From contig JAACJM010000195.1 of NCBI GenBank assembly GCA_013368315.1, positions 95,642 through 159,641 of the forward strand: a DNA stretch of 64,000 bases, in the 5' to 3' direction. Shown here piece after piece: positions 1,761-32,345 of the stretch; position 1 is the stretch's first letter; the number at the start of each line of letters is the position of its first letter. The stretch comes from Tetrapyrgos nigripes (lineage: Eukaryota; Basidiomycota; Agaricomycetes; Agaricales; Campanellaceae). The notes below the pieces were generated by a model. The model made no database searches. It saw nothing but the letters and a program-made list of their open reading frames with translations, and was not told the DNA's origin. A program made the translations under genes and the position numbers.

Positions 1761-1870
1761 TAGCGTCGGCGGGAAACGCAAGCTTACATCCTGGACTCGC
1801 GTGTCACACGTCCGGTAACCTCGGTCCAGATGTCAATCAAGCCCCTATTCTTGTATGTAGTATGTATCCT
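1761..1870. repeat. left terminal inverted repeat
   Basis: The outermost 20 bases match the inverse of 8210-8229 exactly. Further in, similarity continues with small indels: the words CTGGACTCGCG, CGGTAACCTCGGTCCA and GTAGTATGTATC all have inverse counterparts at the right end. Confidence 0.85.
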
Positions 1871-2108
1871 ATATATCATACCGACTCAACATAGTTAAGC
1901 ATCTCCTACATAGGGAGTAGTTTGTGCAGCCTTCTGAGCTTAAGAGTTCATAGAGATTCCTTGACGCAGGGAGCTTGTGTGTGTGATATTGATATACATT
2001 GCCGCATGGTGAAAGCATGTTGGGTGGTTGATCAGATCTTATGCTGCATGCACGCATGGCAGGAGCATATAAGTAACGACGTTAAAGCTTTAAAAGCGCC
2101 TGTTTGCA

Positions 2109-2543
2109 ATGGCAACACCCACTGTGTGCTACTCAGCTGAAGTACCCGGTGATGTCGGATGTGGGCAGAACTTTCCGCGAAAAATGACTTCCGGTCTCTG
2201 TGACCGATGCACATTGTGGAATATGTTGAAGGACAAGTCTGATGGGTTTGAGACTTTGTCGGTAAGCCTACAGACCACTTTATATCTTGAAAAGTTGTTC
2301 AGTGTTATAACGACGATATAGGGATATAATCAATGCATAGATTGTGGTGCTGTAGAAATGGCAATGCAAAACAGTGACGGATGGCGATGTTCTGAGTGCA
2401 TGGAAGGTGAGTTGGATTATGCATTCATACTCTCAGAAGCTATATATGCTAACAAGTATTCAGAGCTGAGGGCGGCCAAAGTCCTACGCATTGCGAATGA
2501 AGTCAGGAGTGGCGCATGGGAAGCGCGCATGAGACGAAATTAA
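2109..2543 (+). CDS. Cys-rich small protein, free copy of the kinase N-module
   Basis: Two exons (2109-2261 and 2322-2543) joined in phase 0 give 125 aa. The first exon has GCGQNF, then GLCDRC. The second has CIDC followed about 16 residues later by CSEC, so it looks like a pair of small zinc-binding knuckles. The arrangement copies the N-terminus of the alpha-kinase in the same transposon: first-exon length (51 versus 53 codons), the GC..GLCxRC pattern, a phase-0 intron, then CxxC..CxxC. The tail is helical and charged, without kinase motifs. It sits 240 bp inside the left inverted end and converges on the kinase gene. A role as a regulator, decoy or targeting subunit of the kinase is inference only. 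A GT..AG pair inside exon 2 (about 2407-2437) is too short for a likely intron. Confidence 0.65.
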
Positions 2544-2668
2544 ATAAAGAACTGATTATTATAGAAAAATCTCGAACATTGGGACTATAGATATCAATGG
2601 TTGAATACATACGATCAAAAAGGATAGATAAATGCTTATGGTAGGAGAAGATTCGGAAGATATATGTC

Positions 2669-5129
2669 TCAAGCTTCATCTTCATTCTCACTTTCCCCAC
2701 TCTGAGTGGCACAACGCCGACTACGCTTGGTCCGCTGGCTCGTGGTAGGCTTACTGCGATGTTTTTCCTTCTCGATCATCAATTCCTTCATACCAATCTC
2801 AGTGCAGATGCGGTTGTCAGTGTGGTTTTTGATGAACTCTTCGAGTCCTTCGTAGCCATGATCGCCGGGACCGCTGTCACTATGGAACCAGGTCAGAAGA
2901 AAGAAAAATAAATTACGCATTGACGAGTTAGTGATCACTTACCCTTCTCTTGTGTGTGTCATAGCATCAAACAGCACTTGACCATGTTCAGTAGGAGATC
3001 CTTCAAAATTTTAATGAATTCTATAGATCAGAGACACAAACATGGAAATAAGATACCTTGCAAGTCAACGAAGACCATTTTTCCATGACTCCAGAAAAGG
3101 GAAAAGTGTGCGAACGCAGCCATTGTCATGAAAGGGAGTGTGTTGCGTTTTACTTGTGTCATTGTGCCTGAGTACTTCGTGACCTCAGTAGTACGGCGAG
3201 GCTCAATGAGCCAAATTACTCGGAGCGGTTCCAGATCAGCTGATTCTGGTTCATACATTTCTTGCATATAGCGATCAGCAGTGACACCAGACAAAGTAGA
3301 GGGTGTATCCTTTTCGACGATCTCTTCAGCAAGATAAGCATCGGTGAAAGAAAAGTCTAAAAATAAGGTGAGCTATCACTCTGAGAGACGATGAAGAATG
3401 ATACTTACCTTTACAGTAATCAACTCCATCCTGTTCACAGACTTGCTTGAAGATGTCCCAGAAGAATTTACCCCGATGAAGGATGCGAAGTTCTGATTCA
3501 AGCGCCCAGCTATCATAGTGCATATTGTATGGGTTACTCATTCGTTTGAATACCATCTGTTCAGAAACCCTGATGAGGCCCTTTGGAAGTGATAAGCTTC
3601 GTAACCCAAATGAATGAAGTATATCAATACTCACTGGAAAGACAGTCTTTGTCAAGCCTGAGCCAATCGAAGCATCAGACACCACTGCCTCTACTACCTC
3701 ACCTCCGTCCCAATCGACATCAATTTCACCTTCCTCCTGCTCCTGAATCTGAGCAATACGAAGTTTCATAGTGGTGGATGAAGGGAAGCGTGTACAGCTC
3801 TTGATTTTCAAAACTGCACTGCCCTTTTTTCCATAACTCGATACGAGTGGTGCTACATGATAGTTAGCTAAATCCAAATCCCAATGTTGTAAGACTTACC
3901 GTTGCGTTTGGATGGCATTGAACCAGCCTCACTGTCATCAAGACGTCTTTTGGCTCGTGCAGAACCACCCAGAGCTTGAGGAAGCTCCACTCCGAGCCGG
4001 GTCTCCATCTTGATTAGAACATGATATGAGTTTCATAGATAATTGGAAATTTCGATTTTCATACCTTTGGCGCATCTACAATAAGCCAAAGATGTATATG
4101 TTGACCATTTGTTTGACGGGGACTCGGATTTTTCTTGGTTTGATCAGCGAGTGAGACAAGATTCTTCAGAGGAAAGCCGTCCATGGCAAGATGAACGTCA
4201 TAAAGATTGCCAACAGTACCATGCTCGGTGTTTCCAATCAGGGCAACATTCTGAGGCCAACGCAAATTGACTTCATCGCTACATGCAAAGTCGGATATCC
4301 ATGTAATGAGTGAAGAATGTGTGCTAAAGATAGAATGATACGTACTATTGCATACTTCCGGGAGCTGAGTTACGCCATTGTGCATTGAAGCGATCGACAA
4401 AAATCTTTTTGACATCTAATAACAAAATGAGGATATTCACACTGAAGTAGAGAGATCAATCATACCTGAGACTGAGTCATTAGCATCAAAAGTCATGATA
4501 TCATTAGGGAAGGTGACCAGAGGCTTCTCGGGTGTGGCTAAACGTGCGTGAATGAGGATAGTACGGCCACTGCCAGATTGTCCAGCCCGGAAAGCAGACA
4601 TCTCAGAGGCCGGAGACAAGGCTGCTGGAGTGGAGATGGCATTCATCTGGGCTTGTTTCTGTTTTGCTGCTTGCATCGAGGCAGTAAAATTGGTCGACAT
4701 ACTATTTGCGGCAGCATTTGACATTGTACCTGACTGAGATATGGTAGGTGTTGGGATGGGAAGCGGAGTGGGAGCTAGAGATATGCAGTTGAAAGAAAAG
4801 TCTTCAACGTAGAAAAAATCAATCGTACCTGCAAGCTGTTTGCACATTCCACACAGTGGTTCACGTAGATTGCGACCAATCTGGCCACAACCAGTACATT
4901 GTGCTATTTCCTAAAAAAAATCCTATTATGTCAATACTGATCATGGTAATGGGATGATGAGAATATGTACCTTGGCCTCCTGTGCTTTCACCGGGTCATC
5001 GGTAGACTTAGCAATGAGCTCACATCGGACACAAAGCCCAGGTGACTTCTTGTTAGGAAAGAAACCAGAGCAACCATCGCCAGGACTAGAACCTTGACAA
5101 GAGGCGCATGGATTCTCAGAAGCAGACAT
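2669..5129 (-). CDS. alpha-type protein kinase with Cys-rich N-terminus
   Basis: This encodes a Ser/Thr kinase of the atypical alpha-kinase (EEF2K/MHCK) superfamily, in the form common in Agaricomycetes. Ten exons read in frame: 5129-4971, 4910-4829, 4774-4466, 4415-4346, 4278-4065, 4008-3900, 3852-3409, 3356-3057, 3000-2943 and 2879-2669, giving 598 aa. Residues 1-80 hold two Cys modules (CASC..GLCVRC and CTGC..CGMC). Residues about 81-330 are a linker with a Gln/Ala/Ser-rich part. The kinase domain spans about 330-570: VFKRM (probable ATP-binding Lys near 364), WLIEPRR, KYSGTM, FAHFS, VFVDLQG, FDAMTHT and GPGDHGYEG, then the usual HxxNxIC-like end with Asp replacing the Cys (HTDNRIC). The tail is basic then acidic. 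It is divergently transcribed from the transposase, 510 bp away, inside one transposon. A readable 39-nt stretch in exon 7 (about 3610-3650) could be an extra intron. Confidence 0.88.
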
Positions 5130-5639
5130 GAAAGCGATAATGGACGAGATTGGATGGGTAGCAGAAAGCTGATCTTGGAAGGCCTTATATATCGTAAAAT
5201 CACAGGAAAAAAAAAGGAAAAAAAGCAAGGAAAGAAACGGCCGCTGAAGCACCTATGGGACCGCTGTGCGGGCTTGCCAAACTAGTGTTGTCGAATTTGA
5301 GTCTGTAAGCGTAAAATACGAACCTGTAGACTGCCCTGAGTCTGCCGAACCTTGAGCCCAAGCGGTGAATATATTTCTGAATTTTCAACGTCTACGGCCG
5401 TTGAATCTTACGTTGAGCTCAGTCCAACTCGCAAGGGTAGCAGGAGTCAGAGCAAACTGGGAAGTACGTTGAAGGTATTTTGAAGCAATACTGAATGGAG
5501 TTTAAAAGCTCCGATCGAATTTTAAACGGCGACTGTGGCGTTACTGCGGGCACATGGTTTCTGCAAGCTTAAAAGCAAGCCTTCACATTTGTGCTCACCA
5601 GTCTTTCTTCGTCAATCACCAGGGAGAGCTCCATATGCT
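5130..5639. promoter_or_regulatory. shared divergent promoter region, kinase and transposase
   Basis: These 510 bp separate the kinase start (-) from the transposase start (+), so both promoters must lie here unless they overlap the genes. A pyrimidine-rich stretch on the minus strand (about 5200-5230) precedes the kinase. No certain TATA element was identified. An in-frame upstream ATG for the transposase is at 5535. Confidence 0.4.
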
Positions 5640-7277
5640 ATGGCTTCGAATCCAAGTGGAAAAAATCAGCACAATAACGGACCCCGTCAGTATCCATCTA
5701 TAGAGATTGATACCATTCTGATTCTCTCCCTCTTAGGCCCTCCCGATGAACAGCTTCGAAATGAGCTCATGAGTCTTGCAGTACATGAAGGCCTCAAATA
5801 TTCGGAAATACGTGCAGCTTTGGCCAAGAAGTTCAACTACCACATCGGGTATGTATACATAATTTCTCCTTGGAATTACACCTTTCTAATGTTCAATTCA
5901 GAGACCGTACCCTTTCAAACTTGCTCTGGAGACTTGATATCCCGACGACAAGACGTAACGGAAAGAAGCTTTCCGAGGGTCTCAAGACATTCTTGGTTGT
6001 TGACAAACTTGAAGGTGACCCATATCATCGGCGCAGCGCAGTATCCATACAATCCTCCTTACGACAAGAGATGACACCTATCCCTAGGTAAGCCTCGTGC
6101 TCTAGCTCTGATTTTATTTATAGAGAAATCTCATCTTCTCTTGCTATGCGCTAGGGATACTGTTCGACGCATTCAGAAAGAAAATGAAGATCCAGTTTAT
6201 CGACTTCTCCGAGCTCCTTCTGGCCAGAAATTCAAAATACCTCGTCGTCCACTTTTAGTCATAGGCCCTTATCAGCAAATCCATAGCGATGGCCATGAAA
6301 AGCTGTCCGCTTCGGGGCTGGATATGGGCGGAGTTGGCATACCTATATACGGATTTCGGCAACATGTCGGTCACATTCCGATGCTTGTAGTAGTGCCTGA
6401 TGCACGGCAAGCAGACATTATTGGCCATCTCCATTTGGACTTGATTGAGAGTTGTGGCTACAGTACGTTTCTATCTGTTGACTTGATATTTGCCTCAATG
6501 ATTGCTGATAACGATGGTAGATATTCCTGTACAAATTACAGTGGACAAAGGTTCAGAGACTGGAGAGATGTATGCTCAGCAAGTCGCACTCCGGTGAGTA
6601 TGAAATTTGATTCATCGTGTTTGCTTTCATTCTCAAATACTGTCAGCGAGGCTTTCAATCGAGAAGAATTCCAAGATCTTCACGAGTGGCCGGCCTTTGT
6701 CGCTGTTCCCAGTACCCGCAACATTGTGGTGGAAGTAATGTGGTATTGGTTCCGACGCTTTAACGGGAGAGATCTCCGTGAAATTCTGTGTGAAGGGAAG
6801 TCAAACGGATATTTTCATGCACACAAGCAGGATCACATGTAAGTCAAAAATTTCACCTTGCTTCGTCTACGCATGCCTGACTAGAATGATAGTGATTTAT
6901 TTCATTGGCTATTCTCCAAGATTGTCCAGGGCTGCTTGGACGCTTTTTGCATTTACTGGAATGCGCATCGGGTTAGGAAGCAGGTCAATTCATCTTTCCC
7001 ATCTGGCACTACTCCTAACCAGGTGATGCGCTGTCCTGAGCAATATGGATTGAGAGACTGCAGGATACCAGTTCATCCTAAATCTGTCAATGCGTTGCGG
7101 AGCCGGTTGCCTCCGAGAGATGAGCTGTTGCGATGGGCCAGCAATGAATTTGAGGCAAGGGTCAGAAGGGCTTATCAGGAGATTGGGACTCCTGACCTCT
7201 CTGCTGGAATGAAGTCTGCTCTTCAAGGATGGGAGATTTTCAGGCAGTTGTCTGTCAAGTTGGATGCCTCCCAGTAG
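5640..7277 (+). CDS. DDE integrase-like transposase of the TIR element
   Basis: This probably cuts and pastes the surrounding element. Six exons read in frame: 5640-5848, 5902-6087, 6155-6462, 6521-6593, 6647-6838 and 6893-7277, giving 450 aa. After an N-terminal helical part that may bind DNA (RAALAKKFNYHI..RTLSNLLWRL, about 55-85) comes an RNase H-fold integrase core. The candidate triad is D177 in HSDGHEKL, D243 in VDKGSETG and E288 in STRNIVVEVMW. This SDGH / DxGxE / RNxxVE layout is typical of fungal proteins annotated as integrase core domain-like. Nothing is broken. The last intron must end at 6892 (GATAG) to keep frame. An in-frame ATG at 5535 would add 35 residues; I chose 5640 because MASNPSG starts a compact polar N-terminus. 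The superfamily is not assigned. Confidence 0.82.
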
Positions 7278-8097
7278 CTATCCATTGATTCTCGTATTTA
7301 TTTAAGTTGTAAGGATCTTTGAATGAAGAGTCCATGTTTATTATGTATATCATATCTGAGAGATCATATATCCATTCAAGAATCTCCAGAGATTTCGCAA
7401 AATTCGTGGTTAAAGCTTGAACTTGCGAGGTCTCAGATCAGCATAATTACTACATGACCCCTGAATATTGTCTTTTCCTGGGCTGCACAAAAATGTATAT
7501 GTATCTAACCCTGCCGAACATCGTAGACACGGCAGTATCTTCCCTGATCACATCGTCAAGTGACAATAGATAATACTTATAGATACACAATGTGATAGAA
7601 TTGAGGGCCATTGCGCGTACTTACCATAGGCAGACGCGTTTTGGACGCTTGTCATGAATTGTTGATAGAACGAGCGATATCGGTGTCGTATAGAGCGCGC
7701 AGATAAGTTGCCGCCTTCACGGTGTGTGATCCACAAAGATTCCAAGCGTTGAAATGATCTCCCCCGGTGCTGATGGTACTTATCGTCAAGGGAGTCATCA
7801 CGCCAAGTCGTTTGTGGCTGTACTCGTATATCCGTTTTTGGAACCTCCGGCTTTCCGAGCGCGTTCTACTCTCCATCCACAGTCCTGCCACTTTCTTTAT
7901 ATGCATCCAAATCATCGAAATTCTTAGCCCAGCCAGTATCCCTTTCCATCCCGGATATTTCTCGAAAATTTAATATAATTATTAATTATAATATCCCAAT
8001 TTATTTAATAATTTTCTGAGGTTAGTAATCGCCGGTACGTACAACATCTGAGTTTACAACATACTGCATGAGTATCCTCCTCGTACGAGACAGCTCT
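7278..8097. other. transposon interior without a confident gene
   Basis: This is the stretch between the transposase stop and the right inverted repeat. The minus strand has codon-like pieces (7550-7970) that switch frame and hit stops, so a decayed third gene is possible. No domain is recognised. AT-rich runs lie at 7970-8015. Confidence 0.35.
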
Positions 8098-8229
8098 GTA
8101 TGTTAGATACATACTACATAAGTACATGAATAGGGGCATGATTCCTATCATGGACCGAGTTGGGGCCGAAGTTACCGGATTTGATGGGCGCGAGTCCAGG
8201 ATCCAAGCTTGCGTTTCCCGCCGACGCTA
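8098..8229. repeat. right terminal inverted repeat
   Basis: This is the inverse of 1761-1870 with indels. The outer 20 bases are exact, and shared internal words include CGCGAGTCCAGGAT, GTTACCGGA, GGACCGAG and ATACATACTACATA. The heptamer GGTTGCA follows at 8230-8236. Confidence 0.85.
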
Positions 8230-8760
8230 GGTTGCAGCAAATGTTGAACTTCCAAGACCAGTGATTTGGATTTCTTGACGCAAAAAACTCGCCACCTTAC
8301 GTCTTTGATTATCGCTGCAATCACATTTAGATATCAGAGAATATGTATATGATAAGCCAAACTTCTCACTTACGGCAAGGAAAGAACGGGAGGTATACGT
8401 TTGTCTGAAAGTATACCCTGCATTGTGAAAACAATCTCCTTGAAGGATCCGTTGGTTTGCCTGCTCAATCGGGGAAGTGAAGGAACACCATATGTAGGAA
8501 CGGACAAAGCGCTCGTCCAATTCGGTGTCTACAAACGCAAGAGGTAAGATGTAGATATCACAGGTTCATATTATCCAAATAGTCATGCTCACCTCAGTCA
8601 ATCCAACCGGATTCAACCCACCATTACGAGCTTTCTCACGATGACAGGTCCACTGCTCGAGGTCTTTCTCTGGATAACACGTTAAATACATTCTCAAGCG
8701 TAACAACATTAGCACTCACTCGCAGCTTCCACTGGGTAATATTCGTTCATCCTTACCAAG
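8230..8760 (-). pseudogene. 5' part of the transposon-split host gene
   Basis: Exons can be read on the minus strand: about 8755-8720 (..LPSGSCE), about 8672-8594 (KDLEQWTCHREKARNGG..), about 8530-8384 (TPNWTSALSVPTYG..GILSDKRIPPVLSLP) and about 8317-8230 (DNQRRKVASFLRQE..STFAAT). Splice borders are GT..AG and the pieces join in frame. The last exon continues directly into 1753 and below if the transposon and one GGTTGCA are removed. I recognise no domain. The true start is upstream and was not found. The gene looks intact apart from the insertion, which suggests a recent event. Confidence 0.6.
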
Positions 8761-9315: not shown

Positions 9316-10670
9316 CCCAGTGAAAAGTCGGTTTCCCTAGAGCGAACCAGAGCGAATGTGCACCCGCAAATGATTGGGGAAAAAAGAGTCAGAAAGAGTC
9401 CGAGCGAACTAGGCTATACATATGCTAGGTATTGCACTAGATAACTACTAGATAACTGCTAAAGTATGGCTAATTCTCCTTACTTTGTTGTCAAAGCAAC
9501 TAGTTCCTATGAAGTTAGGCTAAGTTAGCCAGGTAACTTCACTCTACTTGTCCAACTTATCATTATGTATCCTACATACTGCGTAGTACAATGTTATCTA
9601 CACTGTACAAAGGCATAGCTTCGTTTTGTCAACAACTTCAGCAGGTCCCGAGCATCTTAGAAACACTCGACATCATTCAAGGACTTCACGCCTTTCTCTT
9701 CCTTCTACCATCACCATTTCCAGTTGACTTCTTCTCTTTCACGTTCGACGCGCAATCCGCCTGGCCAACGCCGTTACCTTCAAAGCCTTACGCGTCTCTG
9801 ATGTGAACGAGGGATGGAATTGGTTGTACAAGTGGGTTTTGTTGTCCGGTGAGTCCTCCGTTGGTCGCGCTACCATCTTTCTTTAACCCGCCTTTTCCAT
9901 CAGGTGTGTGCTAGTGGGTATTTGTATTCTGGGTACGTCTCAGACACATTCCTGTACGCTGCCCGCTAACTCCCTGGCCAACGTTGTTGTGATCTGCAAA
10001 GGCGTTTTCTCATCGTTCAGTGAGTCTTCCGTGTCGCGTTATCTTCTTTCTCTAACCCGCCTTTTGCATTAGGCGAATTTGTATGGATATCTGGGCTCCC
10101 GGTGCGTCTTGGATGCGCCACCACGTCGTTGCAGTACTGATGGACTTCTTGTGCAGCTATTTTCCACTTCGCAATTGTCCACATCGGTACGTTCTCTTCT
10201 GGAAATTCTGCATGATGCCTTTCCTGACACAGAACCTATGTACACAGACTTTTTCAGGCATTTTTGGAGAGGACATCAGTGTAGAAGGGATTATGGCAAT
10301 GGATGCAGGAGAGTGCATTTTATTACAGTGTATTTCTACTATGTATGTATGCCATGTACTGTACCAAATCGTACCGTAGCAAATCACAATGAACATTTCC
10401 TTCACAATTTATCAGAACCAGAGTGAGCCAGAGAGAACCAGAGCGAGCGCACCAATTAGTGTGCACCCTATTCAAACCAAACGGACGAGAGCGAATGAGA
10501 GCAAATATACTCAAAATCTTCCAAAAAATACTCGCTCAGACTCAGTTTGACTCAATGCAGATAATGAGCGGTGCACAATTTTGTAACGAGAGCGAACACA
10601 GGCGAGTCAGACTGAGTGTCTTTTGGACATTCGCTGGGGTTCGCTCTGGGCCCATTGACTTTTCACTGGG
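9316..10670. mobile_element. non-autonomous TIR element, 1.36 kb
   Basis: The left end CCCAGTGAAAAGTC is the exact inverse of the right end GACTTTTCACTGGG. After a short diverged stretch the inverted match resumes (AGAGCGAACC..AGCGAATGT). The flanks are 7-bp direct repeats CGTTATC. Subterminal copies of GAGCGAAY/GAGCGAR crowd both ends (9345-9415 and 10425-10650), as expected for transposase binding sites. No transposase can be read inside, so movement would depend on an enzyme from elsewhere. The interior has short intron-like duplicated segments. The end sequence differs from the kinase-bearing element, but the duplication length is the same. Confidence 0.8.
9848..10074 (+). repeat. internal direct repeat of an intron-like segment
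   Basis: The segment 9848-9904 (GTGAGTCCTCCG..AACCCGCCTTTTCCATCAGG) recurs at 10019-10074 with about 85% similarity by eye. Both start GTGAGTC and end in CAGG/TAGG, so each looks like a spliceosomal intron within a duplicated exon-intron unit of about 171 bp. Confidence 0.5.
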
Positions 10671-31049: not shown

Positions 31050-32205
31050 TTGCGAAAACATATGGACCAGATTCCAGACACCTCTCCTTGTGCGGTCAAG
31101 TCCCATCCCTTCGCCAACTTTGCATGGGATCCAGCGAGCTTGATACAACCAGAGATGGAGCCCGAGAGAGACTGGCAGGACATTTTGAATCCGATGGTGC
31201 ACGACGCCTTTGGTTACGGCGCTACTGCTGCAGATGGGTTGAAAACCGACTGGGCAATACGAGGAGATTGGGGTCTTGATGGCTTGTATCGAGTCTTGGC
31301 CTACGTTATACAAAAGCGAGGGTTGCAGGCATGGTGTATTGAGATGAAGGTTGAGTCGTTACTAGAGGTCATCGACACTGAGTGAGTCTGTCTTGTTGAA
31401 ATATGAAACTAATCACTCACCTCGGGCCATTCCCTCACGTAGATTTCCCCTCACACTCAACACAACCATTAGTCCTATCTAGTTCCATTTCCCCAAGTCC
31501 GATACATGAGATGCTTCTTGCTCCAGATGTCATAGATGTCAACATGTCCTATGATGAGGAAGAGTTAGGCTGGGGAGATGCTGGGCGCAACGAGACCATA
31601 GTTACGACCAATGCTCTCGCTTGTCCAGGCTACGAGCTCACGTTTCCCTCCAATCAGACACCTCATGAATCCTATCCTTTTGCCATACACGCTCTTCATA
31701 CGCTGCCCTGGGATTACCGATCTGAACATGAATGTTTTTTCCTTCGGTCAATGACGTGCGAGGGCTGGGCAGATGAAGAAAAAGCCTGTAGGCAATGTAG
31801 GGGAACGAGGTGCTTCAAGCAATAGTTGAACATATACGTACCGGGATCCACGAAAACACTCCACCTCATTACCATCCCTTCAGCACTCTCATACCCATTA
31901 CAAGACGCAAAACTGAGGAGATACGGGTGCTGAAGCTGACCAAACTCAACACGAGTCGATAGTTGGTTGGAAAAGCAGCCATCATCGACGACCATAAGCA
32001 GATGATGGTCTCCATTGCGAGTGGGAGGGTGCAACGTTATTCGGCTCTTCTGGCGGTAGGACTGCGGAATGGTGCAAGCATACGCACTATGCTTGAGAGA
32101 TTCGAGCTGGTTGCAAATGGACCGAAGGAGTATGGAGAGGGAGAGATCAAGAAGGCAATTGCTGTGTTGCGTTTTGGAATTCCTCCATCGTTCTCAGGCG
32201 TGTAG
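31050..32205 (+). pseudogene. broken copy of a transposon-linked Agaricomycete protein family
   Basis: Pieces in order are a possible first exon (31050-31385, ..WDPASLIQPEMEPERDWQDIL..) and a second (about 31500-31825) with CPGYELTFPS, SYPFAIHALHTLPWDY, CFFLRSMTCEG and CRQC. A third piece reads GIHENTPPHYH.. and a fourth DDHKQMMVSIASGRVQR..ILQ/MLERFELVANG. I recall this order (PFxLH..LPW..LRSxxCxG..CxxC..GIHENTPYxYH..SIASGxVxR) from multicopy Agaricomycete proteins tied to transposons. It is broken twice: a one-base shift near 31802, after CRQCRG, and an in-frame TAG at about 31954. No function is known to me. Confidence 0.5.
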
Positions 32206-32345
32206 CGTTGGCGGGAAGCCCACGGCAGGATCTTTGCTTCTCCGTCACCGCGTTTATTGTATCCAAATTGTATCTTCAGGCTAATTCATCAGTAATGCTA
32301 GTATTTTTCTTGTCCTTGAAGCCCTCCACGCGGTCGGACAAAGCC

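Follow-up and report, generated by a model that had tools for sequence, protein, structure and literature searches.

An IS3EU-like DNA transposon of the agaric Tetrapyrgos nigripes with an alpha-kinase as a probable resident gene

In this study, we analyzed a 6.47-kb unit within a 64-kb stretch of the genome of Tetrapyrgos nigripes, which belongs to the agaric suborder Marasmiineae; this whole stretch of DNA is referred to as the window. The unit is very probably an IS3EU-like DNA transposon which has moved recently and carries three resident genes in fixed order, for a zinc-ribbon protein, an alpha-type protein kinase and a DDE transposase, kept together by selection through deep divergence. 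A 99.6% identical copy at another site together with an empty site argues for recent movement of the whole unit. An initial sequence-only reading of the window had already proposed the kinase as a resident gene, and this is supported over a chance capture by the same layout in four lineages, its presence at most transposase sites, low ratios of nonsynonymous to synonymous substitution rates (dN/dS) and linkage in three other species. If this is true, a protein kinase under selection in a DNA transposon would represent an unusual phosphorylation control of the element or of its host.

Structure and insertion of the element

The genome searched was a 98.5-Mb assembly of 587 contigs with the window on the contig labelled C190. 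The element comprises the following features, for which all three gene models were spliced by hand:

1754-1760: left target site duplication GGTTGCA, 7 bp, single copy at the empty site on C83
1761-8229: whole transposon, 6.47 kb, with inverted ends, target duplication and a known empty site
1761-1827, + strand: left terminal inverted repeat, exact over its first 25 bp, with weaker similarity up to about 1868
2109-2543, + strand: zinc-ribbon gene, 124 amino acids, exons 2109-2261 and 2322-2543, conserved in other copies
2669-5129, - strand: alpha-type protein kinase gene (Pfam PF02816), 633 amino acids, 11 exons, intact
5130-5639: kinase-transposase spacer, 510 bp between the ends of the divergently transcribed genes
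5640-7277, + strand: rve-type DDE transposase gene, 433 amino acids, 7 exons, intact, triad D160/D226/E271
8163-8229, - strand: right terminal inverted repeat, pairing with the left arm
8230-8236: right target site duplication GGTTGCA, 7 bp, single copy at the empty site on C83

The sequence-only reading had described a transposon with exact inverted ends and a 7-bp target duplication. The duplication was confirmed, since GGTTGCA stands on both sides and the joined flanks occur as an empty site (C83:35482-35881) which is identical at 400 of 400 bases and holds one GGTTGCA. Exactness of the ends applies to the first 25 bp only, while the terminal arms of 67 nt are 84% complementary, with weaker similarity further in. 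The tips read TAGCG...CGCTA in the window element and TACCG/TATC in older lineages. Because the left flank over 1448 bp and the right flank over 1086 bp match C83 at 99.6-99.7% identity, this contig appears to be the second haplotype, and the insertion seems to have happened recently. The element has inserted into an open frame of 198 codons on C83, to which related sequences exist on two other contigs (87% and 78%). With the left 140 bp of the element as query, 26 genome matches were obtained, both kinds of end counted.

Copies and lineages in the T. nigripes genome

For the counting of sites, only strong transposase matches were used (E of 1e-20 or better in a protein search of the genome). 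Thereby, nine sites were found: C190, C477, C154/C58, C91, C41, C170, C345, C27:402.6-412.9k and C370. The co-occurrence count proposed in the sequence-only reading gave a whole or partial kinase at eight of these nine sites, and the zinc-ribbon gene likewise at eight. Gene order and orientation agree at every site where they are readable, with the zinc-ribbon gene (+) followed by the kinase (-) and the transposase (+). The copies fall into lineages A (C190, C477, C154/C58), B (C91, C170, C41), C (C345) and D (C27, C36), and the three-gene layout is present in all four, namely on C190 and C477, on all three contigs of lineage B, on C345 and at C27:402.6-412.9k, where the kinase is interrupted. 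On C36, zinc-ribbon gene and kinase are kept without the transposase. Identity to the window copy in lineages B and C is about 75-78% for the transposase and 56-62% for the kinase, and is lower in lineage D.

The window copy and the C477 copy are 99.6% identical across the whole element, and in the latter, kinase and transposase are interrupted by one stop each. As the same duplication CATAATC flanks the copies on C477, C434 and C281, these were counted as one site on different contigs. In the C434 and C281 copies (loci L011, L012 and L010), the kinase is split by an insertion; on C434 it measures about 9.7 kb and lies at element positions 3219-3223, with 5 bases on both sides as judged from coordinates only. 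Such a repeat of 5 bases on both sides is what long terminal repeat (LTR) elements leave. C154 and C58 hold two element halves with GGCGTTG at both outer sides, and further target duplications are ATGGATT (C91), ACCGACT (C41) and ATTAGAT (C143). Altogether, an exact 7-bp duplication was found at 11 of the 13 two-ended insertions examined, and C37 matches over 6 bases.

Several copies are incomplete. Zinc-ribbon gene and kinase without transposase occur on C143 and C421 as on C36, the C143 flank is found in reverse at C27:445k, and on C53 the kinase alone was seen. The copies on C119, C122, C49, C37 and C154:12.9k (1.7-2.8 kb) and on C35 (8.9 kb, apparently due to an insertion) have no kinase and only about 25 transposase residues; these six derivatives keep both ends. 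The sequence-only reading had named copies entirely devoid of the kinase as evidence against its idea; the kinase-less copies examined were these deletion derivatives, which have also lost most of the transposase, and the fragment on C370. Around C31, C36, C27, C345, C421, C53, C370 and C170, no second clean pair of ends with a duplication was found. Contigs C35, C31, C522, C519 and C419 (L023, L035-L038) have their right end and the flank AACAGAGACACA in common, so this derivative lies in a repeated or duplicated region.

Selection and decay

The dN/dS ratios were calculated from codon alignments by NG86, and only defined values are given. Between the window kinase and those of C345, C170, C41 and C91, the ratios were 0.112, 0.120, 0.144 and 0.102, respectively, at a saturated dS of 2.3-2.7; the comparison across copies suggested in the sequence-only reading thus gave values of about 0.1 between lineages. 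The transposase ratio was 0.068 between window and C345, and the zinc-ribbon gene gave 0.17-0.23 between the window and lineages B and C. For the kinase between C345 and lineage B and for most transposase pairs between lineages, including window against lineage B (saturated), dS was undefined. Between window and C477, the kinase ratio of 0.16 stems from very few changes and the transposase is unchanged. Among the three copies of lineage B, ratios based on few changes were 0.64, 0.71 and 0.95 for the kinase (0.83-1.08 by YN00), 0.69, 0.91 and 0.35 for the transposase, and 0.48, 0.61 and 2.17 for the zinc-ribbon gene, and the kinases contain stops and frameshifts. Hence, in comparisons of mobile lineages the three genes look as if held by selection, and once inserted they tend to drift, a behavior expected of genes that belong to a transposon.

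Decay in lineage B consists mostly of C>T/G>A changes at CpG (53 of 67 in C170, 39 of 52 in C41 and 4 of 7 in C91), with CpG making up 242 of 1912 C/G sites. This suggests that the element copies are methylated. In contrast to this CpG-biased decay (L014-L017), work cited in PMC12730594 detected no hypermutation in Agaricomycotina; here and below, statements on published work refer to the sections of the papers that were consulted.

Linkage in other species

Linkage outside T. nigripes was judged from gene tags or shared contig size. In a word-limited search, kinase homologues gave seven matches, in T. nigripes and four other species, all four of which also have transposase matches. In Stygiomarasmius scandens, the two genes are adjacent by tags (VKT23_016363/016362), in Marasmius tenuissimus the two are near each other (AAF712_010272/010270), and in Marasmius sp. 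AFHP31 they lie on contigs which are both 58,377 long. Identities of the four other species to the window are 66, 52, 51 and 47% for the transposase and 55, 44, 31 and 29% for the kinase in the same order of species, covering different stretches and including two partial kinase records.

Products encoded by the element

The window kinase matches the Pfam profile Alpha_kinase (PF02816) with an E of 3.4e-24 and 86.4 bits against a cut-off of 21.3. It had previously been read as an intact protein of 598 amino acids; intactness stands, whereas the revised splicing gives the length listed above. Cys-pair motifs (residues 8-77) are followed by a middle domain, a basic linker (298-313) and the alpha-kinase domain (392-589). 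FKRM, IEP, FVDLQG, FDAMTHT and GPGDHG are all contained in the protein, and we take these to be catalytic-region motifs of alpha-kinases. The basic stretches at residues 298-313 and 615-619 resemble nuclear localization signals and may function as such. The C-terminal motif HxCNxxC, which is common in alpha-kinases without being needed for the profile cut-off, is HACNRIC in the solved eEF2K and HKCNRIC in lineage B and is kept in P0077-P0079. It reads HTDNRIC in lineage A, where residue 585 (exon 2669-2879) is Asp in place of Cys in the window copy, C477 and P0073; the lost Cys is presumably a zinc ligand. A predicted kinase structure reached a pLDDT of 50.2 and the model was not used.

The intact, spliced transposase with a DDE triad, also recognized in the sequence-only reading, was recovered, with each residue number 17 below the earlier D177/D243/E288, a shift that removal of the 51-bp first intron would produce. 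With Pfam rva_4, the window protein remained under the cut-off (16.5 of 26 bits, E 0.0074), and 30 of 31 transposase homologues matched at E ≤ 0.1 (best 5e-15). The nearest NCBIfam models were matched weakly, IS481 by 7 of the 31 homologues (best E 3e-4) and IS3 by 5 (best 0.008). For a structure model of the homologue P0001 (pLDDT 88.5), the first matches were TnsB, IstA and retroviral integrases, with a best E of 1.2e-3, none ≤ 0.001, and low TM-scores; these weakly scored matches are consistent with a DDE fold of the retroviral-integrase type. The HHCC motif is absent as judged by eye, and a PDB sequence search with the transposase profile gave no match. The spacer between kinase and transposase, which measures 450 bp in C170, 447 bp in C41 and 485 bp in C345 (between exon ends), is a presumed two-way promoter.

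The 124-amino-acid gene had been overlooked in the sequence-only reading. The Cys-rich part of its product is similar to the N-terminus of the kinase, at 38% over 50 residues with an E of 6e-8, so that two versions of this domain are encoded by the element, a free one and one joined to the kinase. The designation as zinc ribbon was read from the Cys pairs, as all Pfam zinc-finger matches were below the cut-off. Outside its three genes, the element has no open frame of more than 105 amino acids, and the eight leftover open frames of the window copy gave neither a Pfam match over the cut-off nor a TET/JBP match.

Alpha-kinases in the genome

A search of the genome with the PF02816 profile gave 38 alpha-kinase matches; this search misses some kinases, e.g. 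that of C345, and most matches outside the element were not fetched. By position, 11 of the 38, at nine insertion sites, were assigned to this element family (C91, C170, C41, C27:445921, C143:15835, C154:182577, C477, C190, C434, C53 and C36), and 27 lie outside it. The idea that the transposon drives the alpha-kinase expansion therefore holds for a part only. As a caution for other basidiomycete genomes, part of the alpha-kinases counted there may be transposon genes.

A PF02816 match lies within 15 kb at 6 of the 11 contig loci of this transposase. Among the matches listed, typed with one per site by judgement, the same applies to 2 of the 71 other rva_4 loci, one of which adjoins the C434 element, so that a general link between rva_4 transposases and alpha-kinases was rejected. 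For weak transposase matches outside the nine sites (E above 1e-20 or second search only), namely on C98, C128, C197, C31 (two) and at C23:621311, an alpha-kinase match is present within 1.2 kb at both C31 loci, at 12.5 kb on C197 and at about 13 kb on C23; C98 and C128 have none nearby among the 38 matches.

An origin of all alpha-kinases from this element was also rejected, because another repeat carries an alpha-kinase match. This repeat of at least 5.6 kb, represented by L039 (C58:346000-351617) and L040 (C154), is 99.6% identical between these two loci and has a different alpha-kinase match. Same or nearly same PF02816 scores elsewhere suggest more copies, and at least two PF02816 matches, probably more, belong to it. 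No transposase of the search panel was found in L039-L043. Two further PF02816 matches are on C31, at L033 (99-105 kb) and L034 (138.5-145 kb), where exons of an alpha-kinase stand tail-to-tail with very distant rva_4 transposases; these two loci have no nucleotide similarity to each other, and no clean ends were found.

Role of the kinase and alternative explanations

As a resident gene, the kinase would work for the element in trans. It would be expressed jointly with the transposase from the shared spacer, be recruited to its place by the N-terminal zinc ribbons and phosphorylate a nuclear protein, with the small zinc-ribbon protein, a separate copy of the kinase N-terminus, perhaps acting as partner or competitor. 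A host silencing or chromatin factor ranks first as target, because the copies show methylation-type CpG decay and relatives of the element pair an alpha-kinase with TET/JBP, but we hold even this assignment tentatively, at less than even chance. The transposase itself, whose activity or timing might be set by phosphorylation, ranks second and is rather unlikely. In a wider sense, the alpha-kinase might be an ancestral core gene of a fungal IS3EU-like clade which predates the split of rusts and mushrooms, a transposon-serving kinase acting on host silencing or on the transpososome with a zinc-ribbon partner, so that a good part of the basidiomycete expansion would consist of transposon genes misread as host genes; this is a speculative proposal to which we give somewhat less than even weight.

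Capture of an ordinary chromosomal alpha-kinase, once and by chance in this copy, would have a pool available in the 27 matches outside the element family. It is rejected as extremely improbable on the evidence of the old lineages, in which the gene occupies an identical position, and of other species: order and orientation agree in four lineages, with the kinase diverged as described above, dN/dS is low and linkage is seen in three other species. Almost as improbable is a neutral cargo kept only for want of deletion; the spread of the six two-ended derivatives without kinase and most of the transposase would fit it, whereas a kinase ratio of about 0.1 across lineages, subject to dS saturation, argues against it. 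That the kinase mainly serves the host, as a domesticated gene or beneficial cargo on which the element rides along, would agree with the number of alpha-kinases in this genome (38 matches) and their high expansion in rusts (PMC4469406). This was judged improbable as well, because copies decay after insertion, with kinase ratios of 0.64-0.95, stops and frameshifts in lineage B against low ratios between mobile lineages.

A more serious alternative, which we nevertheless consider unlikely on balance, places the kinase inside the transposition machinery, where it would phosphorylate the transposase or the zinc-ribbon protein and set activity or cell-cycle timing without any anti-silencing role. 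In its favor, the spacer that separates the two divergent genes is conserved, which points to their joint expression; sequence divergence of the transposase runs parallel to that of the kinase; and the free zinc-ribbon protein shows the kind of relation to the N-terminal part of the kinase that an adaptor could have. On the other hand, 69 of the 71 other rva_4 loci, among the matches listed, have no PF02816 match within 15 kb, and hence the transposition reaction seems not to need a kinase.

Several observations weigh against an IS3EU-like transposon with three co-selected resident genes. At C370, the transposase is a fragment and no kinase could be detected; C170, with two ends, lacks a target duplication, and C345 has a single recognizable end. 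The ratios between lineages are rough because dS is saturated, those within lineage B come from few changes, and one transposase pair there lies at 0.35. Activity of the lineage A kinase is not certain and might be weakened, because the HxCNxxC Cys is replaced by Asp. The best matches of M. oreades for the two proteins are on separate contigs. Both in S. scandens and in M. tenuissimus, there is a second transposase match (P0007 and P0005) for which no same-sized contig has a kinase match. Transposase homologues gave 72 matches from many species and kinase homologues come from five only, which may mean that a single clade has the pairing; many transposase-bearing species, e.g. Dendrothele bispora (transposase 55%), had no such kinase in the word-limited search.

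With the intact genes of the window copy, its empty site, a set of four lineages to compare and a possible partner of the kinase, it is feasible to test what the kinase does in this presumed resident position.

Other sequences in the window

A 1.36-kb stretch at 9316-10670 is missing from C83 and is apparently a second, unrelated recent insertion; its ends read CCCAGTGAAAAGTC...GACTTTTCACTGGG, and CGTTATC seems to be its 7-bp duplication. At 32203-32228, a lone sequence differs from the element tip at 3 of 20 positions; no partner end or inner similarity was found elsewhere in the 64-kb window.

Comparison with known transposons

The sequence-only reading knew of no described transposon class with a resident alpha-kinase. 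This does not hold, as Kojima 2025 (PMC12730594) states for all TET+ IS3EU families that a TET/JBP gene lies between a transposase and an alpha-kinase in opposite orientation. In the sections consulted, the pairing takes two sentences, the kinase itself is not studied, and the TET+ IS3EU families named are from rusts (Pucciniales) and one from Tuber indicum only. No further report of a transposon-borne alpha-kinase was found in the open-licence PMC literature, which leaves most subscription papers outside the scope. Both systems have opposed transposase and alpha-kinase genes within one transposon with terminal inverted repeats, TA...TA ends, an IS3/IS481-type transposase and several genes. 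The rust families differ by the TET/JBP gene, 6-bp duplications and TAYGG..CCRTA ends (PMC12730594), while the present element has no TET gene, only the 510-bp spacer in its place, 7-bp duplications, TAGCG/TACCG/TATC ends and a zinc-ribbon gene beside the kinase.

With IS3EU/GingerRoot (Repbase; PMC10045372), the element shares the TA..TA termini, described as invariable in IS3EU families, and the rve-type DDE core with IS3/IS481 affinity and without HHCC. Duplications there are usually 6 bp, against 7 bp at 11 insertions here, and the likeness is based on described features. Because the duplication length and the TET gene differ and the zinc-ribbon gene is extra, the element is called IS3EU-like and is not filed as an IS3EU member. 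Styx of Zymoseptoria (PMC10853768), a fungal DNA transposon related to IS3EU, likewise has more than one coding sequence, namely four, two of them restricted to Zymoseptoria, and the sections consulted name no alpha-kinase in it. The KDZ (Kyakuja) transposons (PMC12730594) belong to another transposase group and carry a TET/JBP dioxygenase instead of a kinase, but they resemble the present element in that a mushroom DNA transposon has a resident gene for a modifying enzyme, which is mostly undisrupted.

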